64,000 bases of DNA from NCBI GenBank assembly GCA_034406715.1, contig CP137877.1, positions 1 through 64,000 on the forward strand, in the 5' to 3' direction. Position numbers and translations under genes: made by a program. Each line of letters opens with the position of its first letter. Positions within the stretch are counted from its first letter, which is position 1. Shown one piece after another: positions 31,669-55,569 of the stretch. Below the pieces are notes generated by a model. It saw only the letters and a list, made by a program, of their open reading frames with translations, did no database searches and was not told where the DNA came from. The DNA comes from Rhodotorula mucilaginosa. Lineage: Eukaryota; Basidiomycota; Microbotryomycetes; Sporidiobolales; Sporidiobolaceae.

Positions 31669-31982
31669 GTCCTCTCGTAGCTTGTCTGGCTCTTGCTCCG
31701 AGTCGTCGAGTAGAGGTGACCAGAGCAACCCGAAACCTTTTTTTCGTTCGTTTTCGCCGAGAGATTTGCGCAGACGCGGGCGCGGGCCGACTCGCGTGGG
31801 CGACTCGCGGGGGCGATCAGCGACACTCATCACTGCCGTGTGAGGAATTCATCCATAATTTATATGCATGTGCAAAAACAGACAAGGTCTGTGAATACAA
31901 GGAGGACTCTACACGAATACTCAAGTTCTCGTCCGTCCCTTTTGTGTGCGGTTACAGACCCATAGAAAGGTACCGTGGAGAG
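31669..31982 (-). promoter_or_regulatory. GAL7 upstream region
   Basis: 314 bp between the GAL7 start and the end of array member 1. It includes an AT-rich stretch at about 31850-31880 (TTCATCCATAATTTATATGC). No gene seen. Confidence 0.4.
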
Positions 31983-32441
31983 TCAGTGTGTCCAGGTACA
32001 GTTAGCAATCCGTTCCTTGTCTTTGTCCTTGCCTGTGTCATAATCTGTTTCGGCACTCAGTAACTTTACCAAGAATGCATTTGCTCGGCTTCTGCGCTTT
32101 TTCAATCGGATCATCTCGCGAAGGTTGGCCTGGCACAGAGGACAAGGGCACTGTTTGTCAGCAAGAATTGGGCTCTGGAGGAAGGAGCAAGACAACGACT
32201 TGGCTTTACCTCTATTGCTGCTTCATCTCTTGCTGACCAGTCAAATCACTCTGTAGCTCTGCCGCCAGTTCTTCAAGGCGGTGGAAGTTTTCTCGCGCAG
32301 GGACATGACCCTGTCCCCAAAAGAGGGAAGGGGGCAAGTCGGCTCGAAGTGGTTCCTGTTGCTACTAGAACCAACCGGCGCAAGGGTGCTGTGGTGATAA
32401 TGAAACCCGGGCTGGTGTTGATTGGAAAGGGGATGCTCCAT
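31983..32441 (-). CDS. TCCGCGGA-box family member 1 (short, possibly truncated)
   Basis: The first exon starts at 32441 (MEHPLSNQHQPGFHYHH) and runs to a GT near 32239. A second block beginning at a CAG acceptor near 32152 (CPCPLCQANLREMIRLKKRR) continues in frame to the stop at 31983. It was placed in the family because of the promoter palindrome about 190 nt upstream, its position at the head of the minus-strand array, and a His/Tyr-rich start followed by a charged helix. The 315-nt second-module exon of the other members is missing, so it may be a remnant. The donor (GTGATT) is weak, so the exon junction is uncertain. Confidence 0.35.
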
Positions 32442-33331
32442 CTCTGAAGTAGCCGTCTCGAGAGCGTGTCGGAAGCGAAAATACGCCCAGCGTCGTCTCC
32501 GCTGGAAGGCGAGAACGAGTTCAAGCCTGTATGCGCTTGTGTCGAGTCTCGGGTGAGAGACGGGAACAAGAGACTGTAGTTGGAGGCACCGCAGGCCGCA
32601 GGCCGCATTGCGCAAGGAGCGAACACCTTCCGCGGACACGCCGGGACAAAGCGGTGCGAGCGGTGTGCGCGTGATCATTTCGGGATCAAGCTTTCTTTCC
32701 TCTGCTCCGGAGTTGTCATAGAGCCCTGTGACTTGGTTCTGGCGTCTGCAAGACTTGAGCTCAAGACACTCTATGCCTGAAGAGGTCCCTCTCACCTTTC
32801 AAAGCTCAGCCTTTCAAGCTCGTTTGCGCGTCTCTTTTGCTGTCCCTACCCGATCCTGACCCAGAAATCCAAGCTTCAATCATCATGTATAGCCTGTTTG
32901 GACCTTAGTTGTGAACAGGGACAAGCATTGGCGACACAGTAGGGTCCGGTTTTGCATTGAGCTGAGACTGGTACTTCCTGCACTCCAGGCCGATTCACTA
33001 GTTGCCACTTGCCATTTCTTGGGTACTCTCTCTCAAGCTTCAAATGCAAGGCAAAGATATGCAAGGGTACTCCTGATGCAAAAGATCGCTGTCAGTGGGA
33101 ACTTGTCCGTGTCACATCATTGAGTTTGGGCCCTGAGGCGAAGATTCTGTGCAGATTCAGAACTCGCAAGGAAGGACTACAAAGGCCAATCATACAGATT
33201 TGGATTGTACAGATTGTTGTACAGAGAAGAGTGCATCTCCGTTGTGCTGTTAAGAGGACTGTAGGGAATCGGTCCCAGTCCCATCCTCCTAACTGTGAAA
33301 CATGGCTTCCATCTGATTCCCCAGGAAGAGG
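32442..33331. other. Interval with the member 1 promoter; otherwise empty
   Basis: It contains the TCCGCGGA box of member 1 at 32629 and, further on, AT-richer sequence with only short open frames on both strands. No repeat or mobile-element ends recognised. Confidence 0.45.
32629..32638 (-). promoter_or_regulatory. TCCGCGGA box, member 1
   Basis: Minus-strand reading CCCGGCGTGTCCGCGGA, 188 nt upstream of the member 1 start codon. Same core as the five other boxes. Confidence 0.65.
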
Positions 33332-34695
33332 TCAGGCGGGGTAAAACAGCCCGTGGTCTAGATAATAGTGGTATGGAGGGTATCCTGTGTTGCCCAGACT
33401 GCCCTGCTCATTGTTGGGGACTCCATTGCGAGCCCAGTGCATGTTTGGAACGTTAGGAAAGTGTCCACCTGGCACTGCGGGACAAGGACCATAGTCGGGG
33501 CCAGTTCCCTGCCGTTGGTGCGGCTGCCTGTGCATGTGGTGCTGTGGTGAAGTGGCTGTGTGAGATGACAAGAGACTCAGTGCCGGCAATGCCGGCTGCT
33601 CGGGGTGGTCATAGAACCTGCTATCGATCCAGAAAGGCCCATTGCCAGATGGACACAGGTTTGTGGCAAATTGACCAGAGGCTCCCAGCGCACGCCCCTG
33701 TGTAGATTTGAGCACAGCCGGTGGAGGTCCACGTCGTCTTTTCGGATGGTGGTCCGCCGTGCTGCCCCGCCTTTTGCAATTGGCTGCAGCACATTTGCGA
33801 GATCAGTACATCAATGCAGCAGAGTATACCCAGCAAAGACTGTACCACTTCGGACCCTATTTGCACGCCGTTCAAGACCTGCCAAGTAATGGTATTCTTC
33901 AGCTTGATGCTTTGATTTGGAAAACCAGAGGTGGAGGAAGATGTGGACTGACTAGCTGCCGTTACATAGCGTTCAAAAAGTCTCTCAACTGCCTGCATAA
34001 TAGTATGGATATGAAGCAGCTCTCAGTCAGTGGGTGGAAGCTGGCGCCTGGCATCATCTTTTTTGTTTCCATGCAGCAGAGATGCCTACTCACCCACGTG
34101 AATTTCCCGTGGAGGCTTAGTGTGTCCAGGTACTTCCCAAACACCTTGAGATTGGTGTTGACCATACGTTGCATATCAGGTCCTTCTTCGTCATACTGCT
34201 TCCGGCGTTGTTCCATTTTGCCATGCCACATCCTGGCCTGTTTCTGTAGGGATTCGGCACGTCTTTCCAAAGTTCTGTTATCCTGCTGACATTTGTATTG
34301 TGAGTTGCTGCACAGCAGCCAAGAATAGCTCAGGATTGGCGCACCTGGTTTGCAGCCTCGGAAGGTGTAGCCGCTGACAATCCCTGCTGAGGATGGTCAC
34401 GTTCTGCCTTGAGCCAGTCAATGCGGCGCAACGCTTTCTCGTACAGGTACTCGATCCGTTCGTTGTAAGTACCACGTTCCGGAAAGGCGGAGTTGACATC
34501 AATATTGGCTGCATTATGGGCGTTGGCGATTTGCGCAGTGTGACCGGAGCGTGTGATGGGATTCTCGGAGCCTGGTGCAGGTGTGGATTTTCTCTAGTCA
34601 GCATCGGTTGGCAAGTCAGGCAGGAAAGGGTGTTCCAGACCTTTGCCGTCATTGCCGTTATGGAACTCAAAGGAGTAGTAGTCGTGGTGTGCCAT
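33332..34695 (-). CDS. TCCGCGGA-box family member 2
   Basis: Five exons (34641-34695, 34345-34571, 34094-34282, 33953-33992, 33332-33783) give 320 residues with all phases consistent. The helical core includes RGTYNERIEYLYEKALRRID and the module TNLKVFGKYLDTLSLHGKFTW, which ends exactly at a splice site after Trp. A 40-nt exon reads AVERLFERYVTAA, followed by a basic patch (PKRRRGPPPAV) that looks like a nuclear localisation signal. The C-terminal tail is rich in Pro, His, Tyr and Asn (GYPPYHYYLDHGLFYPA). Member 3 has the same Trp junction and an identical 40-nt exon length. I recognise no known domain; the nuclear location is inferred from the basic patch only. Confidence 0.65.
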
Positions 34696-35101
34696 CCTGC
34701 TCGCGGTCTCGGTGCGGGGTGGTTGAGTATCTCGGCCAATAAAGCGCAATGAAGCTGGTGCTGCGGCTAATTGATGCAACACTGCAAAGTAGATGTAGGA
34801 AACCAACCTTGCAGCTGTCGAAACCAGCCCGCGTCCATCAAAGGACACGTTCCGCGGACATGCCGAAGCGGTTCGAGCGCCGCCAGACTTATTCGCCCCT
34901 CTTGCAGGCAGGCGCCCAGCAGCTATAGAGTCTGCAAGCATGTTACAACAGGCGCGGCGAAAAACAAAAGTGGCAAAGGAAGAGAGGCCCGATGACCAAA
35001 AAGAGACAACAATCTTGATCAGAACGAGCCGCTTGGGCCACTGAACAACACCAAATGAAAAGCCAAGCAGTAGGAGCAACATAATAGGGCGAGGAAGGTG
35101 A
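34696..35101 (-). promoter_or_regulatory. Promoter region of member 2
   Basis: 406 bp between the end of the SCP2 gene and the start of member 2, holding the TCCGCGGA box at 34851. No gene seen. Confidence 0.5.
34851..34860 (-). promoter_or_regulatory. TCCGCGGA box, member 2
   Basis: Minus-strand reading GCTTCGGCATGTCCGCGGAA, 156 nt upstream of the member 2 start codon. Confidence 0.7.
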
Positions 35102-35910
35102 TCAGAGCTTGGCGCGGGTTGTGCTGGCGTCAGGCGAAGCGTTCGCGACGGTAGAGGCGACTTGGTCGAGTTTTTCGCGCTCTTGAGACAGGACTCGGAG
35201 CGCGAGGTAGGCGCGGTCGAGATCACCGCGGACTGCAAGACGCTGTGTATTGCAGTCGGCTGTGAGTTTCGGAAGTGCAAATTGTGGGGCAGGCGCAAGC
35301 AACCGGCTGCAAGCTGCGAGGACAAAAAGAGCGCATCAAAGAGCCGGACGCACCTTGGCGGCGTACAGCTTTTGTGGTTGCAGCTGCGAGAAGAAAAGTC
35401 GTCAGATTGGAGATTGGATTAGAAGGTGTCTAGAGCTGCAACCGGATGGACTGCAGACTGGCGTCCCACCTTGCCCGTCGCGAGTCCGACGAGGTCGCGA
35501 TCCGAGATCTTGATCGTGACGTCCGGCTTGAGCGGCGCTTTCTCTTCTGCCTTGAGACTCGCAACGCGGCCGCGTGTCTGCGCGCAAGAAAGACCGATCA
35601 TCGCCCGCACAGCGTCAGCGCATTCCTCCCGAGTCTTTTGCGAACGGCCGCCAAGACGAGTGCCAGACAGGCGCACCTTTACATCCAGGTACCACCTCGC
35701 CTGATCCCCTTGCTTGTTGCAGACGTCGAACAAGTAGACGGTCCGGACTGCGCGCAGGAGTTGCTTCTTGGGCGTCGTCGTCGAGTTGTCGAGGACAGCC
35801 GCGATCAGGGCCATGACGCGCGACGTCTCGAAGCCGGGCACGACGATGGTCGGGTCCGCGAGAGCGGCCTGAGCGAGGCGATACGAGCGCAGTGTGCGGC
35901 GTGTAGACAT
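35102..35910 (-). CDS. SCP2 sterol-binding-domain protein, predicted peroxisomal
   Basis: Four exons (35677-35910, 35470-35577, 35354-35383, 35102-35242) give 170 residues. The SCP2 fold is marked by PGFETSRVMALIAAVL, YLFDVCNKQGDQARWYLDVK, and the signature KPDVTIKISDRDLVGLATGK followed by LQPQKLYAAKRLAVRGDLDRA. The protein ends in -AKL, a canonical type 1 peroxisomal targeting tripeptide. SCP2-domain proteins bind acyl-CoAs and other lipids and support peroxisomal beta-oxidation. The typical fungal protein is about 125-130 residues; this one has extra residues at both ends. An upstream exon starting MDSRGRD near 36067 is conceivable but not needed. It sits between family members 2 and 3 and is unrelated to them. 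Confidence 0.85.
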
Positions 35911-36667
35911 AGAGCGTGAGCCGTTTCGTCGAGTCGGGAGCATGTGGGGGGAAAGAGAGCGATGAGAATGAGCGAGCTGGAAGGCGGCAGCGGGAGGGCT
36001 TGATGAGTCGCGCACGCACAGTGACCAGCTTGTTGTCCACCAGTACATCCCTTCCACGGGAGTCCATCTTTCGTACCGCGGTCGCGTGCAAGGAAGAGTG
36101 AAGGGATGGTGGGGAAAAAGCGGGACGTGCACGTGAGCAAAGGCAAGCTCACGCTGTACACCCTATCAAGGCACTGTAGGCTAGCCTTTCCATACATTGT
36201 CTTTGTGTCCCTCTGGATGTCCTAGCGAGTACGGTGTCCTTATTCTCGTGATCCGACTTGTCTCAACTCGCCGCAACAGCAGTGAAGAAGTGATCTTTTC
36301 GAAAAAGCGGTGCTTTTTCAGTGCTTTGTGCTCTGCAGAAGAGGCTACTAAGGCATATCTTCTTGGCTCGGTAAGCCGTGTACTCCTCGGGTGCTGCTGC
36401 TCCTGCATTTTAACAGTCCCTGAAGCTGTTCTTGTGCTGGACCTTCTTGTTTTCGCCATTGCTGTCCTTCCATCTGCTCCCTGCAATCTATGCCCTTGGC
36501 AAACTATTTGAGCTGCAAATCTCAGCCTGTCACCGCCCTTTGCAAAGGACGGCACTCAAGGCGGACAAGAGGCTGGGGAGCAAGTGGCAGAACGGCAGCA
36601 GCTTGCTTGCACGAGCTGGCTACCTTGTAAATGATCATGAGAAGCTGGGGACATATTGCTACTATTC
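35911..36667. other. Interval without a supported gene
   Basis: 757 bp with the SCP2 promoter and the 3' flank of member 3. Short open frames on both strands. The GC content falls clearly toward 36200-36660. Confidence 0.45.
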
Positions 36668-38335
36668 TCACCAGTAAGAGTTATGTATGTGCCTGTGAAA
36701 ATCAGGAAAGAGCAGTTCGGCATCGAGATCAGACAATCCTCCCGTAGTATCTGCAGGGCAGTGAGAGCGGGGAGGGCGTGACAATGCTGTGGCGGGAAGA
36801 TTGTGGCTTTCCATATGTACAACCTGGCCCTGCTGCAGACTGTGCATGGCATCATAAGCAGGCTGGGCAAAGGATTGATCAACTTGGCAGATTGGGGGTG
36901 GCACAGAGAGCACTGCGCGATGTTGCGTGTTGGGCTGGAACACACTAGGTGATGGCTCAGTCCTCGCCTGAGGTACGCATGCTGGCATTGTTTCTGGAGA
37001 GGGATCTCGCGCAGTGTGTGGCTGCATCTGTGGATGGTCATGCTGCAAAGACAACCATGCTGTAAGTGGTGAGATTACTGATGTAAGAAACTTTATTGGA
37101 CCAGGTCACCATATATGCTTCTGGATGAGGCAAGCCAAGGAAGGCCCCGCTGGGAGGAAATTGTGGGAGTGGCTGTTGCTGTGACAGTGATATGGGGTGT
37201 TGCTGTGACTGGGCACTACCGGCCACCGCTTCCACTGAGCTCAGTTCTAAAGCCTGTGTGAGCATGCCCTCCTGTGCCCTCCTGAGGTTTTCCTTCCTTT
37301 GAGAATGGAGCCGGTGACGCGGCTTCAGACGGTCCGTCAGAGTCTGAGTCAGGCCCGGACGGAGAGCTGATCAAAGTAACACAAAGTAAGGCTGTTGCTC
37401 CTACTTGTGTTGAAGCATACCAACTCACTATCAAATGGCTTCCGCCGTTCAAACAAGGCAGTGACTGGCTGCGGAAGAAAACAAGTCTGTGATCTGGCAG
37501 AGAACAGACACACTTGCTGCACCTACTCACCCAAATGAAGGACTGGTCAAGCATCAGTGTGTCAAGGTACAGACTGAACAGTTCAAGATTCTGATTCAAG
37601 GTAGTGTTGGCTGTTGCCCTGCGAGCCCAATACTCCTTGCCCTTCGCCAGCATTCGCTGATGCCACCCGTTTGCTCCCTTTTGATGCTTTTCCGCGTGGG
37701 CAAGCGTGACCCGCTCAACTTCCGCCTGCTCTTGCTGTATTTCCTGAGCTGCCAATGTCACAAGCTCGCCAACCACAACGTCAAACTTGCCAAAATGTCC
37801 AGCCTTTTCCGGATCTGGTGGAGCCAGAGTAAGCTCTTCCACCGGCTGTACACGTGAGAATGATTCAGCGTGGGTTCGTCTAAAAACAGTCAAGAACACT
37901 GTTGTTCAACACATGAAAGAAGCCACAGCGTACCCAGGAGATTGTAATGTTAAACTGTATGTCTTCAATGTCTTCTCGAAGCAGAGAGAGCCGTTTCTGG
38001 ACGTGTTCCGGATCTCCCCTGGCCAACTTGGCCCAGAAATCTGGCATCATCACGGTACTCTGCCACTTGTGAGCTTTGGCAAGCTCCGCCCACGCCCACT
38101 CCCGGGCTTTTGCAGTTGCGTCCTGTTCCAGCTGCGAGATTCGTTGGCACGCCTTCTCTGCCAACATGTTGACCGTTTGTGTGTACTCTGCTGCAAGCGG
38201 AGACTCGGCAAGAATGGCAGCTGTGCTAATTGTAGCAGGGGTGTTGATCAGATGCAGAGGCATGGTGAAGTGCTGGTGGTGAGGGGGCGCGCCGTAGCCT
38301 GAGCTGCCGGCAAAATGGTGAGGAGCGTCCGCCAT
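36668..38335 (-). CDS. TCCGCGGA-box family member 3
   Basis: Five exons (37934-38335, 37531-37845, 37429-37468, 37110-37366, 36668-37042) give 462 residues. The N-terminus is Pro/His-rich (YGAPPHHQHF). Module A (EYTQTVNMLAEKACQRISQ ... LREDIEDIQFNITISW) ends at a splice site after Trp. Module B is a 315-nt exon that ends NQNLELFSLYLDTLMLDQS then FIW, again at a Trp junction. A 40-nt exon (PVTALFERRKPFD) matches AVERLFERYVTAA of member 2 in length and position. The tail is Gln/Pro-rich, then ends LFPDFHRHIHNSYW. Module A aligns with member 6 (EYAAHVNDIVQACHDRLDLL ... FGETIHWP). Predicted mostly helical with disordered ends; function unknown. Confidence 0.68.
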
Positions 38336-38888
38336 TTGCTTTGAGCGCGGATCCGCAGGTAAGAGAGTTATTACGGCGGAGCCAATTTCCCTGAGAGCGC
38401 AGAGACTGCAAGCGGAGATCAAGGGTAGCACAAGAGGTCAAGACGCTGGGGAAGCCCAAGTCCCGAGGGAGCAAGAGCGGTGCAAGTCCGCGGACAGTCC
38501 GGGCATCGAGCGGTCTCGCGTTCGAGAGGATTGCGTGCTCGGGCCGAGCCAAGCCGCTTGTATAACGTCGGTGCAACGTGGGAAAGCGCTGCTACGTTGG
38601 GAAACAGCGGCAGGCCTTGCCATTAAGCGGATGTTCGAGCTCAGCATCGGCAGGCAGAGATCGCTTCGTCACGGAACTTTTGTATGGCTCGGATACAGGA
38701 CTTTCTTGCAGAATTGACCATAGTCAGAAGCTGTACCCGGCCTGCAAGAACAGTACATCAAGCCCTAAACAGCGGCAGTTCCACAAGAAAGAGACGAAAT
38801 CGCCCTGAAAGACGTCAACCTCGTCGCGACTGCTTTTTCGATCCAAAGGTCTCCTCTCCTGCGCCTCACACTCTCGCAAACGCCTCAA
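38336..38888. promoter_or_regulatory. Divergent promoter region of member 3 and the basic unknown gene
   Basis: 553 bp between two divergent starts; holds the TCCGCGGA box at 38487. No gene seen. Confidence 0.5.
38487..38496 (-). promoter_or_regulatory. TCCGCGGA box, member 3
   Basis: Minus-strand reading CCCGGACTGTCCGCGGACTT, 152 nt upstream of the member 3 start codon. Confidence 0.7.
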
Positions 38889-40388
38889 ATGCGGCGCGGG
38901 AAGAGGCCTGGCGAAGTTTTCATTGCCGAACGCTGGCCACACGACCGCGGCTTGAACGTCGGCAGCTTGAGCAACGCGACCGACGCCATGTTCGTCCCGA
39001 GTCTGTCGAACCCGGCCTCGTCTGCAACCTACCGAAGGAGCGCTGTCAGGCCGCTAAGTTCACCATGGAAGCCTCTCGGATCTTCGACGAGTGTAGCCTT
39101 GCACAGCCGAGGCCGTGCGAGCGCGAGCTCCGACCGAACCGAGTGCACGAGCGTTTACCGCGAACGCCTGTCGGCGACGCGGGGAGGCTCGGACGGGCGC
39201 GCGGGCAATCAGGACGGAACTTACGAAGTAGAATGCACAGGTGTGTGGGGTCTCGAGGAACACACTGTCCGCCTTCTGACCAGCTGGGAAACTCTCGCAT
39301 CCGCAGATTCCGAGCTGCCGTCGCCACTCGATCTCGTCCCTCGCAGCTTGCGGACGTCCGCGACCTCGCGGAAGCGTAAAGCAGGCGAAAGCGACCTTGA
39401 AGCCGAGTCAAGCTCGCTTTCAAAGCTGCGCAAAACCGGAGACAGCACGCGGCAACTGCGGCTCGAGACGAAACGGAATGCCCTCGGCATCTTCTTCCCC
39501 GAAGCAGCAGAGCGCAGCCTCCAGCGTGCCCAGACCAGGAGTCACATCGGCACTTGCGGTGATCTCGCGACTGGAGCATCCAGCTTGTCTTTGCCGGATC
39601 AAACCCACCCTCGCGCAGGGTGGCAGAAAGTCGACATTGTGTGGCATTCTTTCAAAACTCCTCCGGGTTCCGACGAAGAGGACATCTTCGCAGAAGCTTC
39701 TTCTCCCTCCACGTCGCAGCAGCCGACTCTCCGCGCGGACTCCGTTATTGGCACCCGCGCTGCGCCTCGTCTGCCGCTGTCGCCAGAAGAGACGCCCGGC
39801 GAGCCGCCGCTACCGCTTCCAGGATGGCAACACCTGCTCGGCCGTCACGAAACACACAACCTGCAGCCTCTCCAGTCACTCGCAATTCCTCAGCCGATTC
39901 AGACGGGCGCATCAGGCCAGCTCAACCTTTGCGCACCTCACCCGGCGCTGCCGACTTCTCCGCGATCAACAAGCGCTGGACATCCAGCAGAGGATCCCTC
40001 ACTCGGCGAGCTCGAAGATCGAGAGATCGACGAACACAAGACGCACGACGCGCCAGTGCAGTCGTCGCAGCAACCGGCACAAACCGAACCGCAAAAGAAG
40101 AAACGCAAGAAGAAGAAGAAGCAGCAGAAACAACAGCTCCCGCTCCCGGCCAACAACGGCACTGATTTCACTCGCAAGCGGAAGAAAGCTCGAGCGCGTC
40201 AAGCGGAACGAGACCGGCAAGCCGCCTGCCGCTGCGCTCTAGAGCGAATCGACGCGTTCGAGCCGACGGCGGAAGACGAAGCGCGTCTACAATCGCTGAT
40301 GGCGAAACCGCCGCCGTGGGTTGAAAGTCTTGAGCGGACACAGGCAATCTTGAAACAGTTTGCAAAGATCTGCGGTGGCAAAGCTTGA
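38889..40388 (+). CDS. Basic protein of unknown function, single exon
   Basis: One uninterrupted frame of 499 residues in a genome where most genes are split. The first two thirds are Ser/Arg/Pro-rich and probably disordered. A short patch reads GWQKVDIVWHSFKTPPGSDE. Near residue 395 there is a strongly basic run (QKKKRKKKKKQQKQQ) and then TRKRKKARARQAERDRQ, typical of nucleolar or nuclear proteins. The last 60 residues look ordered and helical (ALERIDAFEPTAEDEARLQS ... SLERTQAILKQFAKICGGKA). No named domain recognised. Convergent with the nucleoporin gene, with 93 bp between stops. The start could be further downstream. Confidence 0.6.
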   Translation: MRRGKRPGEVFIAERWPHDRGLNVGSLSNATDAMFVPSLSNPASSATYRRSAVRPLSSPWKPLGSSTSVALHSRGRASASSDRTECTSVYRERLSATRGGSDGRAGNQDGTYEVECTGVWGLEEHTVRLLTSWETLASADSELPSPLDLVPRSLRTSATSRKRKAGESDLEAESSSLSKLRKTGDSTRQLRLETKRNALGIFFPEAAERSLQRAQTRSHIGTCGDLATGASSLSLPDQTHPRAGWQKVDIVWHSFKTPPGSDEEDIFAEASSPSTSQQPTLRADSVIGTRAAPRLPLSPEETPGEPPLPLPGWQHLLGRHETHNLQPLQSLAIPQPIQTGASGQLNLCAPHPALPTSPRSTSAGHPAEDPSLGELEDREIDEHKTHDAPVQSSQQPAQTEPQKKKRKKKKKQQKQQLPLPANNGTDFTRKRKKARARQAERDRQAACRCALERIDAFEPTAEDEARLQSLMAKPPPWVESLERTQAILKQFAKICGGKA

Positions 40389-40481
40389 TTCAAGATGGAC
40401 GCTTCTTTCTGTAGCAGCTTGTGATATCAGAATTTTCGGTTTCATTCGTGTTGCGCCGTCCGAGGTTCCTACGAGAGACTG

Positions 40482-46400: not shown

Positions 46401-47750
46401 TGAGGGTCGCCCATCCGTTGGAGGGCGAAGTGGGCGAGTAGGCGGCGGCTTGCGCGAGGACGCCGATGTCGGCAGAGGGGGCGTTGACCATCACGAGCAG
46501 GTGCTTGAACGGTTCCCTGTGAGAGACGGCTCGAAATCAGCAAGTGCGGAAAGAAACAAAGAGTCAGAGGGAAAATCCCCCACCAGTTCCGGAATCGACC
46601 AACCCAACGTCGTCCCTGTCGTCCCATCATCCCAAACGGCGGACACGGATCCGCAAACTTGGTATAGCTCATCTCCTGTCCCGCCTTTGTGATCACGTAC
46701 ACCTCGTCCTCATGCTCGACATCCTCCTCGCACTTCGTTCGAGGTTTCGCATACGTCGCGAGAAAGACGTTGTTCTCGAGCCATTCGACCGAGCGGACTT
46801 CGAAAGCACCACTGGAAGAGATGTCGGCCGGAGCGGGCACGAGCGCTTTTTGCTCGCCTTCCGGGGAGAGTTGGACGATCGTGCCGGATGCAGTTCCGAC
46901 GGCGAGTTGCTTGCCCTTGACGGACCAGCAGGCGGAAGTGGCCGCGAGATCGGAGGGGAAGGTAGCATGGACGGCCGATGTCTCGAGGTTGAAGATGGTG
47001 AGAGGCGCGGCGGCGGACGGGGCGAGGACCGCGAGGAGGGGCGAGTCGGGAGCCGGATTCGGGCAAAGGTCGATCAGGGATTCGCCCGCGACGAGGGCTG
47101 GCAACGTCTTCAGCGGCGCGCTCTGTAGCAGATGTTCGGGTGAGGTTTCACGACCGTCCAAAGTTGCAACGTCAGTCGCGGGCGCAAGGGAGCCAAAGAG
47201 CGAGCGAGAGCGCACCTGTCCCTCAACGAGCGACTTGAGTCTCCACACCGCGACCGACCCGTCCCTCAATCCCGCAACGACGAGTTTCTCTCCCATTGCG
47301 AATCGCAAAAAGTCGACCGGGCTCGGAGTCGGTACATGCAGGGCTGGGTCCACTTTGGGTGTGTCATGAGGCGACGCGGACCGCGCCGTCGAGCGCAGAG
47401 TCGGCAGCGAGAACAGCCCAAAGCCTGCGGCGTACACGCGTGGGATCAGCAGTGCATCCAGCGTTGTCTCTAAGGCCAGAGAGAGAATCGCGAACTGACC
47501 GCCTTGGCTCGAAGCGGCGACGACCCATCCAAAGTGGTTGCTCACGGCGAGCAAGTGGCCCGGTTCGGCCGTACAGGGCACATCTTGATCGAAAAATGTG
47601 TCGCTCAGGCGCAGCGTCGCGCCCTTGACCGGCTGCGTCAGCGTCAGGAACTGCGGGCGGTCATGAGGAGAGCGAGGTCAGCTGGCTGCGTAGTCAGAGC
47701 GCACGACGGGGAGGCAGACTCGCCTCGGTGTTCTCCTCTGGCGCTTCCAT
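40482..47750 (-). CDS. NUP159: FG nucleoporin of the NUP159/NUP214 type
   Basis: Nine exons give about 2232 residues; the largest is 42829-46516. The N-terminus (exons 2-5) is a beta-propeller with GHLLAVSNHFGWVVAASSQG, LVVAGLRDGSVAVWRLKS, WSVKGKQLAVGTASGTIVQL and VEWLENNVFLATYAK, as in the Dbp5-docking propeller of Nup159. A huge low-complexity region follows with FG/FGA and SFSFAP repeats and acidic stretches. Near residue 1500 a helical coiled-coil region has HWSFGDVDKLKQL, AVAQKRRITELQSQILK and KIEQLEEHLLSLKKQLAKEK. A second FG stretch and an acidic tail close the protein. Nup159 sits on the cytoplasmic face of the pore and helps mRNA export. Intron 1 uses a GC-AG donor (GCGAGT at 47723); no GT donor gives the right phase. 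Confidence 0.92.
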
Positions 47751-48126
47751 CGTCGCCTTGCTCTCGACTCCTCGCAAGCTGTACGTGCGCGAGAGCAGCG
47801 AGAGATGTTGGCTGAAAGTGAGAACGCGGAACCGGAACTCGCAGCTTTCAGAGTGGTCGACAGCCTCCGCGAGTATGTGAGTTTGTACGGGCCTAGCCAG
47901 TATACAGGAGGACCGTCTGTTTTGGGGGCAGCTCGGAATCGGAAAATACGCTAAAATCGGATGCGCTTCTCTCGAAACCGAGTCTTTTCCCGCGCTCCTC
48001 TCTACGGCATGACGCGGTTTACAAGTTCCGAACCTCCTGCGACGTCCTAGAGTAGATAACTCGAAATCGCAAGGAGTGCGAGTATGTGCGCAGGAGGGGA
48101 GAGGCAGGGCGGAACGAGACGTCGGC
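47751..48126 (-). promoter_or_regulatory. NUP159 upstream region
   Basis: 376 bp between the NUP159 start and the 3' end of the Ca3427-like gene. No gene seen. Confidence 0.45.
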
Positions 48127-49527
48127 TTATTGCAGTTTCGCCACGCTCGTGTCGACAAAGTCTTCGAGGTTCCAACCGGCGGACGGTTCGGACAAGACGC
48201 CCGCGGCGACCAGTGTGCTGTACGTTCGCGAGTAGCAGGGTCAAGAATGCAGCCGAGTCAGCAATCAAGCAGGATGGGACAGTTAAAACTGCAGCGAGAG
48301 TAGGCGAGAGAAAACGCACCGCAGGGTCGACTCGACCATACTCTTGCTAATCTCGTTCACCTCTCCCTTGGGATACTCGACCTGCTTCAACCAAGCCTCG
48401 ACATCCTCCCTCGGGTACTCCCACGTCGTCTCCACAAACTCCTTCGAACTCGACTCGCGCGCCTCGGGCGCATCGAACGCGTGGATCGAGGTGCTCAACT
48501 CGGACAGGAACTTTTGCAGCTGCGTGTGCTGCGGCGAGGAAGTGGAGAGGGTGGAAGGAGTGGCGACGATCGCCCAGCTGTGCCATGGCGTTGGGACGTT
48601 GCCGATGAAGCGGACCTCGTTCAAGTAGGGCTGCGGGCGGCGCGAGCAAGCGGGTGTGAGCACGAGGCACGAGATTCAAGCGGCAGATTTCTGAGGTACC
48701 TTGGTCGTAAAGTGCTCCCACATCTGATCCAAGTCCACACTCCGTCAGCCTCGTCTCTCGACGGCGCCGGAAAAGATTAGAAAACTCACGAAAGCGGCTG
48801 CTCGGCCATCGTTGACACCGTCGCGGAGGTTCTTGAAACTATCGAGCACTGTACGAGTCCCCGATGGTCACTTTCAATGTCAGACCCGCCGACGCCAGCC
48901 AGCTCGAAAGTCAAGACATTGCTTGGGAAAAGGCCGGCGCACGGTGCCCGTACCTTCAAACCGGATCGGCTCGACCTTGCCGTCCTTGTCGGTCCAGCCT
49001 TCCCGCAGAGCCATGTAGCTCGCCATGACCTGACTGCCACTGCGGGGGGGAAAGAGTGACTGTAAGACTCAAAAGCCCCACGCTTCGCGCATCGGAGGAG
49101 TGAGAGGTATGCCCACTCCGAACGCACCTGCCGACCCTCGACACGCCAATCTTCTCCCCCCTCAAATCCTCAAGCTTCTGATACTTGCTGTCCTTGCCGA
49201 CGATGACAGTCCAGTTGAGCGGCGAAGTGACATAAGTCCCGACGAGTTTGAACTCGGCAGTTTGTTTCGCGATCCCGGCGATGAGAGATTCGGTCAAGGC
49301 GATCGCGACGTCGATCTCGTTCGCTTTCAGGCGAGACATGATCTGGCCGGTGCCACCTGCGGACCCGTATACGGCTGGTCAGAAGGTCCTGATCTGAAAC
49401 TCAGGCCGCGGCGGGGGAGCGGCTCACTCGGGCATTCGACCAGTTGGATGTAGTCGCTCTGTGCCGCGAGCTGTAGCAGCGGACTACTAAAGTGTTCGCG
49501 AACGTATCCGATCCGAAGGGCGGCCAT
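48127..49527 (-). CDS. Ca3427-like periplasmic-binding-protein-fold (PBP2) protein
   Basis: Seven exons (49428-49527, 49128-49356, 48954-49039, 48790-48848, 48700-48723, 48320-48630, 48127-48217) give 299 residues. It begins directly with the first beta strand (MAALRIGYVREHFSSPL). Features of the type 2 solute-binding fold follow: GTGQIMSRLKANEIDVAIAL, the strand-crossing TSPLNWTVIVGKDSKYQKL, LRGEKIGVSRVGSGSQVMAS, and DGRAAAFMWEHFTTKPYL. The closest group I know is the fungal Ca3427-like PBP2 family, related in fold to bacterial NMT1/sulfonate-binding proteins. There is no signal peptide, so it is probably cytosolic. Ligand unknown. Exon 5 is 24 nt. Confidence 0.8.
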
Positions 49528-50462
49528 TCTCTTCGTGCTGCGAGGCGGGGATTTACCGACGAAAGCAAGGGTCAGGAATCTGGTTTTTGAGATGGTCGTC
49601 GCATCATGTTCGTAGCGGCGACGCCTCCCTGAAAGCGCCTCCCGGGTACATTGGCAGTGAGCTCTTTCTGCGTGTCCAACAGACGGCGAACCGCTCGCGC
49701 CAACGGTGTCTGAAATCAGCAACCGGACAGCTCCAACACCTCGACTGCATGGCGCCTCGTTTGCGGCCGGTCCAGAGACTGAGCGAGTGCAGCCTTGGAC
49801 GTTGTACCGCGGTCTAGCGGACCAGTACCCCGTGCAGCCCTGTGTAGGCGGGCGGAGGAACCGGGTCTCTGGATCGATGTGGAGCAGCGATCGCAACCGC
49901 GCGAGAAGGTGACACAAGCGTGGGCCGAGCGGCCAGGGGCACCGGTGCCTAGGACCAATCGAGGACGTCCACACACCTTGAATGCTGCAGTATACGCTCT
50001 CCCAGTGAGCAGTAGCGCGGTTAACGTCCGATTCGCTGATGAACCGACGGTCGAGGTCACGTGCGGCGAATTCGACTCCGACTCCTGCGCGCGCGGTTTA
50101 CTCGCTCGGAAGCAGCGCCAGTAAGAGTCGATCGCGAAGATGCTGGTATTGCTGCTGCGCATACCCGATTTCGCTATGCGCGCGCACCTTTTCTGGCCCG
50201 CGCAGTTCCGCGCGGCGCGCGGTCCCGCCATTCCTCGGCTCAAAGCTCAGAGACAGGAGCTTTACACGAACGGCCAAGAGATGAATGGGCGTTCTTTTCT
50301 TGGCCCGCGGCCTGAGCGAAAGAGGCGGTGCTCAAGGATCGCTCGGCTTGTCCGCGGATTTGGTCCCGGCGGAAAGGCAATCTCCCGCCCTTGGTCGCCC
50401 ATCTTTCTTCCACCATCCACCTCCTTGACCCAAGAAGCAGACTCGCTAGTCTTACTTCTATC
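49528..50462. other. Interval upstream of the plus-strand array
   Basis: 935 bp between divergent starts. The only open frames overlap on both strands without codon bias. Contains the TCCGCGGA box of member 4 at 50349. Confidence 0.45.
50349..50358 (+). promoter_or_regulatory. TCCGCGGA box, member 4
   Basis: Reads GCTCGGCTTGTCCGCGGATT, 105 nt upstream of the member 4 start codon. Confidence 0.7.
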
Positions 50463-51166
50463 ATGTTACAGTCTGCCGCCGGAACTAGCAGGAATCAGCC
50501 GGCTCTTTACGAGCCCTTCGTCAATCAAGTTCAAGGGGTTGTGAACGCAGCCAACCGCAAACTCGAGATACTCGAGCGCGCTGCGCTAGCTCCGGTTGAA
50601 CGTGACGTCGATAGTTAAAACTGAGGCTCGCAAGTGGGCAAAGTCCGTTTGTACGCCCGAGTCCCTGCAAAAGGTCCATTGCGCGGCTCGTGCACTTGTC
50701 TTTGCCCAGGCTCGCAGCGCTCTCCATACATATATCGCAAGTCCACTTTGAAGAAAAGATCAGCTGGCCTGTGAGTGCGGCATCAATGAGCGCAAGGATC
50801 ACTGTCACAGATCACGGAACGCTGACGGATGTACACAATTTTTAGACCGTCGATGAACTGGTTGCAAGCTCTTCTGGTTGGGATCAACTCCCCTTGCCCG
50901 CGGACAACCAGGCATCTTTTCAAGACCGAGTCTCTGCATTGGTCAAGCAGATGCGCAACCGCGCAGACGAGATCGACAGAATGATGCGTGCAGAAATTAC
51001 TGCACGCGTTGACGAAAGACGTCAGCAAACTGCCGCATGGCAGGAGAGTATGCTTGTTCCGCGCAGAAGCAACAACTACAAGCAATTCCCAGAGGGTAGT
51101 AGCCTGCACTTGACTAGGCTTCGTGATCTTGTGAAAGACTGGAGCCTTTCAACCCCTTTTGATTGG
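50463..51166 (+). pseudogene. TCCGCGGA-box family member 4, apparently decayed
   Basis: The first exon-like block (50463-50770) starts MLQSAAGTSRNQPALYEPF and reads module A of the family. It changes frame about twice: near 50616, where ARKWAKSVCTPESLQ continues in another frame, and again near 50720 before FEEKISWP. Its length, 308 nt, is not a multiple of three. The second block (50846-51166, 321 nt) is intact and reads module B (TVDELVASSSGWDQ ... HLTRLRDLVKDWSLSTPFDW), ending at a GTAAGC donor after Trp like other members. No clear 40-nt exon or C-terminal tail follows. It could be a pseudogene, or the breaks could be assembly errors or very short introns. Confidence 0.5.
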
Positions 51167-52249
51167 GTAAGCTGCGCCTTTGCCCCCACTGTCGCACACC
51201 ACCTTTTTGGGAATCTGCTAATGAGGCTAGACCTTGTTGCTGCCAGGACGACCACACTCTCACTTATCAAGCCGCTGGATGGCAGCAGCAAAGGGCGCCG
51301 TTTCGGGGGTTCAACCGTAACTCGGGTAAGGGTCACAAGTCTGCAATAACCAAGTACTGGTAACTGACTTCTTCTGGCTGACTAACTATACAGCGTTTGA
51401 CCCTCAGGCTCGTCGTCACTAGTGTTGATGAGGCAACATATACACTCGCCCAAGTGTAGCATGCAAAGGTAATGACAAATAGATGGCCTTGACCTTCTCA
51501 CCTTGTCTCGACCGTTTCGTCAACTTCTCTCCATGTTTCTCCCATCTCTTCCCGTGTTTAATTTGCCAATTGTGTTCCCTTTCTTCACTGTCACCGGAGC
51601 TTGGCTCAGCCTTGTGGTTGGGTTTCAACTGGATTCCTATGCGAGTTTGGTGCGAGAGAGGTGCATCACTGTTGGCCGGAGAAGACCCTATCGGAATACA
51701 TAGTCTGCATGGCAGACAGCGCTTGAAAATCTGTAGCGCGACGAATCATTGTTGATTCTCCAGTGATGGCTGTGAAGACTGTCACAGCTGCAGTGCGCAT
51801 CGATCGCGTAGCCTTGCAAAAGCGGCCCATCTTTGTCTCCCTTACGCACAGTTTCTTGGGCTATGACCCGCACATCTGTTGGCTGGTAGACAGAAGGCTA
51901 ACCCTACGCGCGCAACTACGGCAAACCTATCATAACGAATACCGTTAAAATGAATATCTTGCACTTTTGACCTGCGTCCACCCACTTGGTTCCCAGCCAG
52001 ATTGACCAAATAGTGCATAATGTATAATGAAGAGTCAGCGGTCCGGAAAGCGATGCCTCGAGGTCATTGAATATTGAGCTTCTCGGAGCGGTACCGGCTT
52101 GTCCGCGGATCCGTCGAAAAGACACCGCCACCGCCGGCACCACACCCCCTTTTTCCCCTTCGTCTCACCCTGGCAAAGCTCATCCAGAGTCAAGAGTTGC
52201 ACAAAGCTGACCCTGGACACGGAACCCCTGCCAAGGAACAAGAGACAAC
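51167..52249. other. Interval between members 4 and 5
   Basis: About 1.1 kb with lower GC and only short frames. Remnants of the missing 3' exons of member 4 may lie here but I could not identify them. Holds the box of member 5 at 52100. Confidence 0.4.
52100..52109 (+). promoter_or_regulatory. TCCGCGGA box, member 5
   Basis: Reads GGTACCGGCTTGTCCGCGGA, 150 nt upstream of the member 5 start codon. Confidence 0.7.
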
Positions 52250-53003
52250 ATGTCTCACTCGGTTCCAGCGTACAGCGCCGGCAGGCCAAACGAGGCCGCC
52301 AGCAGGCTGCGCCACAACGGACAGTATGTGGCTCGCGTTCAAGACGTCGTCAACAAGTGTCATGCCAGAACCCAGCTCCTCACGGAGGGTAGCCTGGCTG
52401 AAGTCAGGGGTCTGCTGATGAGCTGAAGCAGGCAGTCCTTGCTTGGGGTCAGACAGTGCTGGCTCCTGAGATGCTGATTCGACTCAGGGTGAAGGCCCAC
52501 TCTCCCATCGCCAGTCGACTCGAGGCTCTTGCAAAAGAGGTCGATAATCTTGACCTAGGTCAGCCAATGAATTGGCCAGTACGTGACAGATACGCTCATG
52601 CGTTTGCAAAAACTTGCGAGTTAAGCTGTTGATCGTATTTCTTCCCGAGCAGGGCCTATATGACTTTACAAACTCGGCCGATGCACCTCAAGGAGTGGAG
52701 CCGTGCAAGCTGGGCACTGTATATGGGCGGATCTGGGATATTATCCATGCCGCCCTCTCCCGGGCGGAAAATCTGTCCGACCAGAAGCTGCGAGTGATCA
52801 TTCAGGACAGCAGCTCGAGAAAGGTCGAAGTCGCGTTATGGGTGGAAAGAATCCTGGACCCAGTCAGAGAATTGATGTATGAACAAAATCCAATCTTGTT
52901 CAACCAGAAGTTTGCTGCATTCAAAGCAAGCTGCAAGCTCTCCATGTCCTCGTCGCCGACTCAAGCTCGACTTGCACCTTCGACAACTGGATCCGTCGAC
53001 TAG
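52250..53003 (+). pseudogene. TCCGCGGA-box family member 5, frame disrupted or unusually spliced
   Basis: The first exon (52250-52578) reads MSHSVPAYSAGRPNEAA ... VQDVVNKCHARTQLLTEGSL, then needs another frame for AVLAWGQTVLAPEML ... LGQPMNWP, where it ends at a GTACGT donor. A 29-nt GTCAGG..AAGCAG segment at about 52393-52421 would restore the frame if spliced, but that is very short for an intron. The second block from 52653 reads module B (YGRIWDIIHAALSRAENLS, YEQNPILFNQKFAAFKA), close to member 6. It reaches a TAG at 53001 without the expected Trp junction, although FDNW is present in another frame. Whether it is functional is open. Confidence 0.45.
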
Positions 53004-53540
53004 GAATGGCGTCGAGGATCGCAGGACTCGTCGAAGGATAGTCGGATGTTGAATGATCGGAGCCGGACTCTCTTTCACATGCGAGATTAGCTCGCTTCGC
53101 TCCCATCTCGTTCTGTTCCTCTTCTCCTTTTTCTTTAGGTCACTTTCGCTTGAATTCCTAGGCTCAGTTCTCTGTCTCTCGTGACCAGGCAGAAAGAAGA
53201 GTCTACAGAGTTCCAAGCCGTGCTAGTCGTCGTCCGACCTCGCCTTCAGCAGCCGACGCGACTTGCACAAGCATTGGCGACGGGGACCTTGCGTGCACTT
53301 TCCCACTGGTGAGCTGACATACTGCAGGTTGCACATTCACAGGCTAACAGAACGCATGGTGTGCCCAGGATGTCAAGGACATTTTCCCTCACAACGCGCT
53401 GCAACCTACGAGTCAAGCAGGCCATGAGCAACGACCTACATGGGGTAAATCTCTTTTCCCTACAAATCACCACTCGCGCAATCTCCAAGTGCATCACTTT
53501 TGCCCTGCTGTATTACCTATAGTCGATCTCTAACTGCAGG

Positions 53541-53891
53541 CACATTCTGCTCACTACTTTGACTGGGATCGCCGAAACAGCACAGTTTTCTGTTTACCCA
53601 CCGCAAAACCAAGCGCTAGCTCCGCCTGGCGGAGTACATCCAGCTTACGCTGTGACGTATGCTGGTGCGATGGGTGGCCATTCTCCACCTAATCCGCCGC
53701 CTCCTCCGCCGCCTCCTCTGCCGCTCAATCCGCTGCCTAATCCGCATGGACTGGCTGGACCAAGCCAAGTCTATCAAAGTATCCCACCGGGGAGCTTTTT
53801 CCCAATCACGGGACCGCAGGCCAACTGGTCCGGTCATCATCATCATGTGCCCATGTGGCCACCAGCAGTTTGGCCATACTTTCAGCAATGA
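53541..53891 (+). CDS. Pro/His/aromatic-rich C-terminal exon, probably of member 5
   Basis: An open frame ending at 53891 reads TGIAETAQFSVYPPQNQALA, PPPPPPPPLPLNPLPNPHG and ends GHHHHVPMWPPAVWPYFQQ. The composition matches the tails of members 2 and 3 (Pro, His, Tyr, Trp, Phe). Exon-like blocks at 53253-53308 and 53369-53444 lie between it and member 5, but the phases of my joins do not fit. I therefore list it separately. It could also belong to a further, lost family member. Confidence 0.35.
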   Translation, partial: HILLTTLTGIAETAQFSVYPPQNQALAPPGGVHPAYAVTYAGAMGGHSPPNPPPPPPPPLPLNPLPNPHGLAGPSQVYQSIPPGSFFPITGPQANWSGHHHHVPMWPPAVWPYFQQ

Positions 53892-54548
53892 AGTCAAAGG
53901 TGTTACCTGTTTGGTAGCTGAGGTTGCAAGATTGGCGCGAGCATGGCACGAGGCGGTTGCTCCTGTCAAGCCCCTTTTGACACCATACAGTTTCCCACAG
54001 ACATTGCAAGGGGAGGGCAAACTGTGGAGTTCCATAGATACGAATGATTACGAGGGGGAAAAGGCAAAACTGAGGGACAGAGCTTCGTGTCCGCAAACCC
54101 AGTCAAGTCACTGATCGGATGTCCTACCACTGTGCTGGACCCACTCAAGGGCTGGGCTATAAGGATAAACCCATGTAAGGAAGCAATACGCGCCGCAATG
54201 GCACTTCAGGCAAAAGAGATAGCGAGACACGCACGAGTGACGAGAGTTGAGAAGGTCGAAGGCTCGCGTTCACGCGTTCACGGCGCACCCTTCCTCGCGC
54301 CAATCTGCCCTGCCTGTGTATATCCTTGCCTAAACATGCAGCTCTACCCATAGACCTGGCAGTGTACAAGGATCGGATTGATCCAGAACAGAACCAAGTT
54401 CCTTTGGCATGTTCACCGAGTCGGTGCAATCGCCCGGCTTGTCCGCGGAGTCGCGAGAAAAGGGGTTCATGTGTTGCACTCGGCAGCACTTGTGGCTTCT
54501 CTCTTCCACTTTCCTTCAGTTGTCATCCACCACCACAGCAGCAGCAAC
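53892..54548. other. Interval before member 6
   Basis: 657 bp without a supported gene; holds the box of member 6 at 54440 and a CAGCAGCAGCAA tract just before the start codon. Confidence 0.45.
54440..54449 (+). promoter_or_regulatory. TCCGCGGA box, member 6
   Basis: Reads CGCCCGGCTTGTCCGCGGAG, 100 nt upstream of the member 6 start codon. Confidence 0.7.
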
Positions 54549-55569
54549 ATGTTCCCCACTATTCAGGCGTCCGGGACCGTGCATGCCGTCGCAGGAACAG
54601 ATCAAGCTGATCCACCGTCTCCCGACGGAGAGTACGCGGCTCACGTCAACGACATCGTCCAAGCGTGCCATGACAGACTAGACCTTCTCAAGCGACGTAT
54701 GCTCGCTTACGCTACAAAAGATTCTAATGCGCTGAAGACCGCGGTGCGCCATTGGGCACAGGCCGTGCTGGCTCCCGCATCACTTGGCCGTCTTGCCACA
54801 AAAGCCCGCACACCAATTTTTCAGGAGCTTCATGAGCTTCGTCAGCAAGCGGGCTCGGTTGGCTTTGGCGAGACTATACACTGGCCTGTGAGTGTGTCAC
54901 ACTGAACACATGCTCACTGCACGGACCTAAGCCACATTGTATTGATCCATCACCTGATGCAGACCACGGATGAGCTGATGGATCTTCCTGATCCACGCTT
55001 TTCTGACTCGGTCTGCAATCTCGAGGCCTTCATTGGGACAGTTGAGTCCCTTGAAGAAGCCGTTGACGAACATGCCGACAAGCTCTTCCGCCAGCAGCGA
55101 GACGAAGTTTTTGACCTCCTAAAGGTGCGGAGGGGGGCGGTCATAAGATGGGAAAAGGATATGCTGTGTCGAGCGAAAGAAGAGGTTTACCAACGGAATC
55201 CCCGACTTCACAACGCGCGTTTTGCCGCTTTGCGCAAGAGCGTAGATAGCTTCACCCTTATGCAGCGTTTCAGGCTGGTGAGTTGGGTTGTCTGCAAACG
55301 CACAAAAGGCGGGACCAAGGGCTGCCTTGATTGATCAGTCTTCTGCCTTTGCAGCGTGTTTGCGACATTTTTACTGGTGCAGTGTCACTGGAAACAAATC
55401 ACACCCATCGTCGGAAACGCGAAAGAGGTAAATTCTTCCCTCCTTATACACGTATTCAAACCCTCCCCGCCATCCTCTCTGCTGACAGACTGATTCGGAA
55501 TTGGTGAAACAGACCAGCCGTCCCCCTTGGAGCCGCAGAAACGACAGCCACCTCTGCGCCGATTGTAGT
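54549..55569 (+). CDS. TCCGCGGA-box family member 6
   Basis: Four exons (54549-54887, 54963-55277, 55355-55427, 55514-55569) give 260 residues with all phases consistent. Module A (EYAAHVNDIVQACHDRLDLL, VRHWAQAVLAPASLGRLATK, LRQQAGSVGFGETIHWP) ends at a splice site. Module B is exactly 315 nt, as in member 3, and includes VRRGAVIRWEKDMLCRAKEE and RNPRLHNARFAALRKSVDSF. The third exon starts RVCDIFTGAVSLET, the counterpart of the 40-nt exon of members 2 and 3, and runs on into a basic patch (NHTHRRKRERD). The short tail is Pro/Arg-rich and lacks the aromatic ending of other members. This is the best preserved plus-strand member. Confidence 0.65.

Follow-up and report, generated by a model that had tools for sequence, protein, structure and literature searches.

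The first 64,000 bp of contig C14 (G000:C14:1-64000, called the window here and meaning that whole stretch) in the 20.35-Mb, 19-contig genome of Rhodotorula mucilaginosa carry six loci of one gene family, M1 to M6, in two outward-facing arrays, and the 15-bp box CGGNNTGTCCGCGGA precedes every one of them. This box is the most telling feature of the region and was overlooked in the initial annotation, which was prepared from the sequence alone. The CCCTAA telomere repeats at positions 1-67 identify the window as a chromosome end. With moderate confidence, we interpret the loci as birth-and-death arrays of intracellular helical proteins that have a promoter box in common, which is probably bound by a zinc-cluster factor.

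The 15-bp box in the window and across the genome

The box lies 99-187 bp before the ATG used for each member and is found nowhere else in the 64 kb, giving six occurrences where 0.004 are expected from composition. On the minus strand, the M1 box is CGGCGTGTCCGCGGA (32629..32643, 187 bp before the ATG), the M2 box is CGGCATGTCCGCGGA (34851..34865, 155 bp) and the M3 box is CGGACTGTCCGCGGA (38487..38501, 151 bp). The three boxes on the plus strand all read CGGCTTGTCCGCGGA and are located at 50344..50358 for M4 (104 bp before the ATG), 52095..52109 for M5 (140 bp) and 54435..54449 for M6 (99 bp). The octamer TCCGCGGA likewise has six occurrences in the window, one per member and in the coding orientation, against an expectation of 1.8. 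When the sites are located by this octamer alone, inverted CGG triplets (CGG-N5-CCG) are present at 6/6, and this arrangement makes a zinc-cluster (Zn2Cys6) factor the likely binder.

Genome-wide, 193 box sites were identified (98 with a purine as the next base and 95 with a pyrimidine) against 1.3 expected, and the reversed control returned 0 for both forms. The initial search with CTTGTCCGCGGA had returned 121 sites compared to 2 for the reversed pattern, and CGG stood in front of 27 of the first 30 of these sites before it had entered the pattern; in the 193 sites it is given by the search pattern. The sites are clustered, with 47 neighbours less than 5 kb apart where about 9 are expected, and 60 of the 72 neighbours within 12 kb point the same way. 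For the nine contigs of known length, half of the sites (75/150) are found no more than 150 kb from a contig end, compared to an expectation of 25%, these being ends of the assembly and not necessarily telomeres. When the sites are grouped into clusters, this distance takes in 17 of 35 arrays, compared to only 13 of 50 single sites. Alignment of 74 sites with 40 bp on each side revealed a clear preference only at the two bases adjacent to the box (0.40 and 0.22 bits); another two positions reached 0.12-0.15 bits. As the preference is confined to so few positions, the box has been kept while its flanks have not.

Some boxes are unusually arranged. Three same-strand boxes at G000:C4:520631, 525323 and 530015 repeat a spacing of 4,692 bp twice, as in a recent tandem triplication. 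Doubled same-strand boxes 30-109 bp apart are present at G000:C2:1517009/1517039, C16:91216/91314 and C10:107074/107183.

Homology, gene models and distribution of the family

The three members on the minus strand (M1-M3, 31.96-38.34 kb) and the three on the plus strand (M4-M6, 50.46-55.57 kb) resemble one another within each array. M2 and M3 are 39% identical over 77 columns, M5 and M6 are 41% identical over 56 columns and 28% identical in module B, and module B of M4 is 26% identical to that of M6. Between the arrays, homology was detected by profile comparison, using small alignments of one to five rows without secondary structure. Module A of the plus array matches that of the minus array with a probability of 94.1, and pooled module B does so with a probability of 65.6, each reached by 0/30 shuffles. 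The two modules also match one another: the pooled rows of A and B align over 85 columns with a score of 40.7 (probability 92.6), where the maximum shuffled score in 96 comparisons was 16.8 and the highest probability in four such sets of 96 was 2.5. The same comparison inside the plus array gave a probability of 83.1, again reached by 0/30 shuffles. Most simply, modules A and B would be copies of one helical domain of approximately 90 residues, doubled as a symmetric phase-0 exon.

These comparisons confirm the initial annotation in treating the six loci as a single family of little sequence identity, and in placing them in two arrays that point away from each other. Its two-module core is retained in that both modules were found; the pattern proposed for module B is met only loosely, and the relationship between A and B as copies of one domain had been missed. 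The local duplication, decay and rapid divergence that it described are also borne out, by the 26-41% identity within arrays and by the state of the loci: two are open frames (M3 and M6), one is a probable gene (M2), two have a broken exon 1 (M4 and M5) and one is a remnant (M1).

The exon models of M3 and M6 are open and bounded by GT-AG introns. Exon 1 of M3 (37934..38335, minus strand) encodes a histidine-rich N-terminus and module A, and ends in a Trp codon followed by a phase-0 GT-AG intron, while the open exon 2 (37531..37845) encodes module B. Exons 3-4 as modelled (37038..37468, as 37468-37429 and 37366-37038) encode a basic, Q/P-rich tail, the splicing of which is uncertain as the gene finder picks a different solution, and an additional P/H/Q-rich frame is present at 36668-37105. 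For M6, on the plus strand, exon 1 (54549..54887) encodes module A, exon 2 (54963..55277) encodes module B, and exons 3-4 (55355..55568, as 55355-55427 and 55513-55568) encode a short basic tail before the stop codon. M2 (33332..34695, minus strand) is probably intact. Its predicted exons are located at about 34695-34641, 34571-34345 and 34282-34094 and then from 33992, with an open H/P/Y-rich frame running to 33332; an extra upstream intron is required to escape a stop codon, and the start exon and the joining of the tail are predicted only.

M4 consists of a broken exon 1 with module A (50463..50770, plus strand) and an open exon 2 with module B (50846..51166). In M5, exon 1 (52250..52578, plus strand; module A) is followed by exon 2 (52653..52961; module B) and a proline/histidine-rich tail frame (53560..53891). 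In all four members M3 to M6, exon 1 ends in Trp or Trp-Pro and is followed by a phase-0 intron, and the final residue of M6 module B is Leu rather than Trp. The decayed M1 (31957..32441, minus strand) has its ATG at 32441 and a module-B end near 31957-32000, and it was recognised through short matches of that end to M2 and M3 (E 2e-4 and 0.004). A 47-nt DNA repeat, D3, at 31953-31999 in M1 is common to M1, M2 and M3.

AlphaFold2 prediction of M6 module B from six rows gave a helix of approximately 60 residues and a second helix, with a mean predicted local distance difference test score (pLDDT) of 78. Foldseek comparison of this model with the PDB returned 0 matches at E values up to 10. The best profile match was a stretch of a terpene synthase (E 0.018), which was taken as chance. 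Judged by hydropathy only, M3, M6 and P0001 (a gene model from another R. mucilaginosa strain) lack both a hydrophobic N-terminus and a membrane stretch, and the proteins therefore probably act inside the cell.

In line with the initial annotation, which knew no family of this architecture, 0/5 member sequences reached a curated Pfam cut-off; the best match was that of M6 to DUF7939, at E 0.0014, its 19.4 bits falling short of the cut-off of 27 bits. Searching M6 against 5.8 billion proteins returned a single match at E up to 10, the hypothetical protein C6P46_000979 of R. mucilaginosa, which is 90% identical over the 47% covered. M3 likewise returned only P0002, a frame on an ENA contig that is 98% identical over 227 residues to exon 2 and the following sequence, with the introns read through. 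This search depends on common 5-residue words, so distant homologs could escape it; the anticipated restriction to one clade agrees with one match each for M6 (R. mucilaginosa) and M3 (the ENA contig) within that sensitivity. Expansion of the family, which had also been anticipated, is seen only locally: whole-genome searches with M6 and M3, in which the best candidates alone were scored, led to the two arrays and, beyond them, to a single weak match on contig C9. With M3 as the query, the match to M6 reached no better than E 0.09 over 108 residues, and M4 and M5 were not among the matches listed. The C9 match (G000:C9:250136-250354, minus strand) resembles the end of M6 (E 0.02), contains an internal stop and is perhaps a relic.

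P0001 fuses M5 and its proline/histidine-rich tail with M6 module A in one model, and exon 1 of M5, which is broken here, is open in that strain. Between the strains, M5 module A is 78% identical over 54 columns and 93% over 42, compared to 94% for M5 module B (79 columns) and 97% for M6 module A (124 residues).

The family occupies low-GC islands (54.1% vs 60.5%). Conserved genes around and between the arrays encode a galactose-1-phosphate uridylyltransferase, SCP2, a Nup159/214 propeller, a THI5-like protein and a tRNA dimethylguanosine methyltransferase, and the minus array is interrupted by an SCP2-type conserved gene at 35000-36160 (minus strand) between M2 and M3. Neither Rfam families nor tRNAs were detected within the window at default thresholds.

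Genes behind the box elsewhere in the genome

Twenty array regions, containing 43 of 74 sites, were analysed for the genes that follow the box. Neighbouring genes are homologous in several arrays, among them those on C16, C7, C2, C8, C5 and C18, at approximately 25-45% identity, while the remaining regions gave short matches only or none. An early hidden Markov model of modules A and B found no convincing member among the first 30 box loci (best E 0.0034). Between arrays or sub-arrays, 1 of 34 profile pairs (C5-C8, score 18.1, probability 4.9) exceeds the shuffled maximum of 16.8, which was derived from four other profiles; the 34 pairs leave out C2 and the remaining arrays. The helical Trp-Pro pattern looks alike by eye on C16 and C5, but with 33/34 pairs below the shuffled maximum a single superfamily behind all boxes was rejected. 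By these comparisons, the orphan array families led by the box appear mostly unrelated to one another at the sensitivity used. None of five array proteins tested (0/5) matched Pfam above cut-off, and for the C18 family one protein was found elsewhere, in Rhodotorula sp. JG-1b, among 8000 candidates scored.

Two array proteins from unlinked, box-led loci on C8 and C5 (L061 and L065) have a common C-terminal motif, H.IG.RA.RRYGI followed by W, and L037/L038 carry a weaker match to it (E 0.0095) on their minus strand. A box-led array of four genes on C7 (L052, 118.6-128.1 kb) has W.FP and VWDS motifs and is unlike the helical family.

The association was also approached from the proteins alone. 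One member each of three array families was used to collect ten paralogs independently of the box, and 4/10 of these (at C5:596 kb, C18:343 kb, C18:354 kb and C6:74 kb) have an exact box, which precedes the matched start by approximately 110-150 bp; the chance of an exact site is about 0.001 per gene. Three more have a near-exact box, two with one mismatch at a similar distance and one with two mismatches. As a control, random stretches were drawn from the window outside the six boxes: of 2000 that were 571 bp long, 0 contained a site with at most one mismatch and 8 contained one with two, and of 1000 that were 1800 bp long, 0 contained one with at most two. In a fourth family, 4/4 members found lie behind boxes in the C7 array, which is not an independent case.

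Weighing of explanations and relation to known systems

Under the favoured explanation, the family would be restricted to the R. mucilaginosa lineage; it occupies two tandem arrays that face outward in a subtelomere. At the sequence level, each gene consists of copies of a domain of approximately 90 residues, with every copy in its own phase-0 exon, together with a variable tail; the helices of the domain are predicted by modelling. Symmetric exons and whole genes should duplicate easily, and copies then break and diverge, a course of birth and death that the broken and diverged copies demonstrate for this strain. The box of each copy, CGG-N5-CCGCGGA, would drive its transcription. Since the same box precedes several orphan array families and some conserved genes, its factor would activate all of these genes jointly. 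Helical hairpins, acting in pairs, would bind partners, and their binding specificities would diverge.

Several observations weigh against this explanation. Transcription, splicing and factor binding are inferred from DNA sequence. Pfam families were identified in 5 of 10 sense-side segments (M16 peptidase, GT92, XLF, TPP enzyme and Tom37), drawn from the first 30 loci in contig order and chosen mainly by coding score, with 1/10 on the reverse side, and two further predicted genes behind a box encode COG2 and a member of the actin family. The box is thus not an exclusive tag of orphan families, and that idea was discarded. Among the first 30 loci, with some overlap between them, coding was stronger on the sense side in 10 and on the reverse side in 13, and 7 were undecided. 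The scores come from a crude gene finder with about 2,000 codons of training; the direction of the box is accordingly kept in arrays and not visibly elsewhere. In the protein-only collection, 3/10 paralogs have no box (none better than four mismatches), and the box with two mismatches lies at a fitting distance from a gene start that is uncertain. Six profile comparisons (M3B-M6B, M3B-M4B, minusA-minusB, plusA-minusB, plusB-minusA and M2-long vs plusB) fail the shuffled control, and plusA vs M2-long is barely above it (18.8 vs 17.5), so that the link between the arrays depends on module A and pooled module B. The model of M6 module B has a predicted template modelling score (pTM) of 0.41, which leaves the packing of the hairpin uncertain, and L065, a protein of another array, has a hydrophobic stretch (KD19 1.92).

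Alternatively, the members could be recognition or conflict genes, involved in non-self recognition, incompatibility or drive, in which diversifying selection acts on modules that serve as surfaces for partner binding; other fungi have comparable rapidly evolving arrays near their telomeres. We regard this as unlikely on balance, although the arrays mix intact and broken copies, M5 module A differs between strains more than M5 module B or M6 module A, and box sites are enriched near the ends of nine contigs. Lineage-specific genes of Neurospora cluster with HET genes near telomeres, according to one study (PMC10684091). The broken exon 1 of M5 means that its divergence here may be drift. We are similarly sceptical of a gene nursery without special function, in which relaxed subtelomeric duplicates are transcribed only through a general promoter box. 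Two of six broken frames and a remnant, the presence of the box before conserved genes and the low GC content are all consistent with such a nursery; free drift, however, would not preserve the frames, splice phase and Trp-Pro pattern that M3 and M6 keep despite their low identity.

A connection to mating type, which the initial annotation had raised as an inference and which has no other argument in its favour, is highly improbable. STE3 is located at C12:498 kb and the homeodomain pair at C7:869-870 kb, while the arrays are on C14, and linkage was rejected on these positions; homeodomains were also absent from the five member sequences tested. Fast evolution and arrays would fit secreted effectors or the remnant of a transposon, readings that are also highly improbable. 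The hydropathy of M3, M6 and P0001 argues against secretion, neither long terminal or inverted repeats bounding the arrays nor other transposon ends were found in 31.9-56.0 kb, and no Pfam transposase was identified in the five member sequences tested.

A broader proposal is that one transcription factor, through a portable 15-bp box, controls a set of separate array families across the genome, all of them fast-evolving and restricted to the species, whether helical or not. Some genes with mitochondrial, DNA-repair and Golgi roles would belong to the same regulon, which would gain new genes when a gene arises or is duplicated beside a ready-made box. This is offered tentatively, as a possibility that we lean against. 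As a group, orphan genes tend to escape notice, since their proteins have little in common that searches detect, and here a short promoter box links several orphan families across one genome. In a yeast that can be cultured, two questions become testable: how new genes gain expression, and whether scattered orphan families form one system.

The site of the nitrate regulators NIT4/NirA is a similar TCCGCGGA octamer, and no nitrate gene was found among the genes tested behind the box. Literature searches with fragments of the box and with TCCGCGGA gave no Rhodotorula paper by title among the matches listed, and those on Rhodotorula and Microbotryomycetes genomes, gene families and promoters gave nothing on the arrays or the box by title among the matches listed. 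The closest genomic parallel is in Neurospora, where lineage-specific genes have few or no domains and their duplicates are often clustered, toward telomeres (PMC10684091). Like those clusters, the arrays described here are duplicated and subtelomeric, and they are putatively lineage-restricted; unlike them, they feature a 15-bp promoter box before separate families, which the available excerpt of that study does not mention. The closest regulatory parallel is the pleiotropic drug resistance element PDRE1, given as TCCGCGGA and bound by the Saccharomyces zinc-cluster factors Pdr1/Pdr3 (PMC11111045). No drug pump was identified among the genes tested behind the box. The final eight bases of the box are identical to PDRE1 as stated there, whereas the box of R. 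mucilaginosa is 15 bp long, carries an extra upstream CGGNNTG and is non-palindromic.

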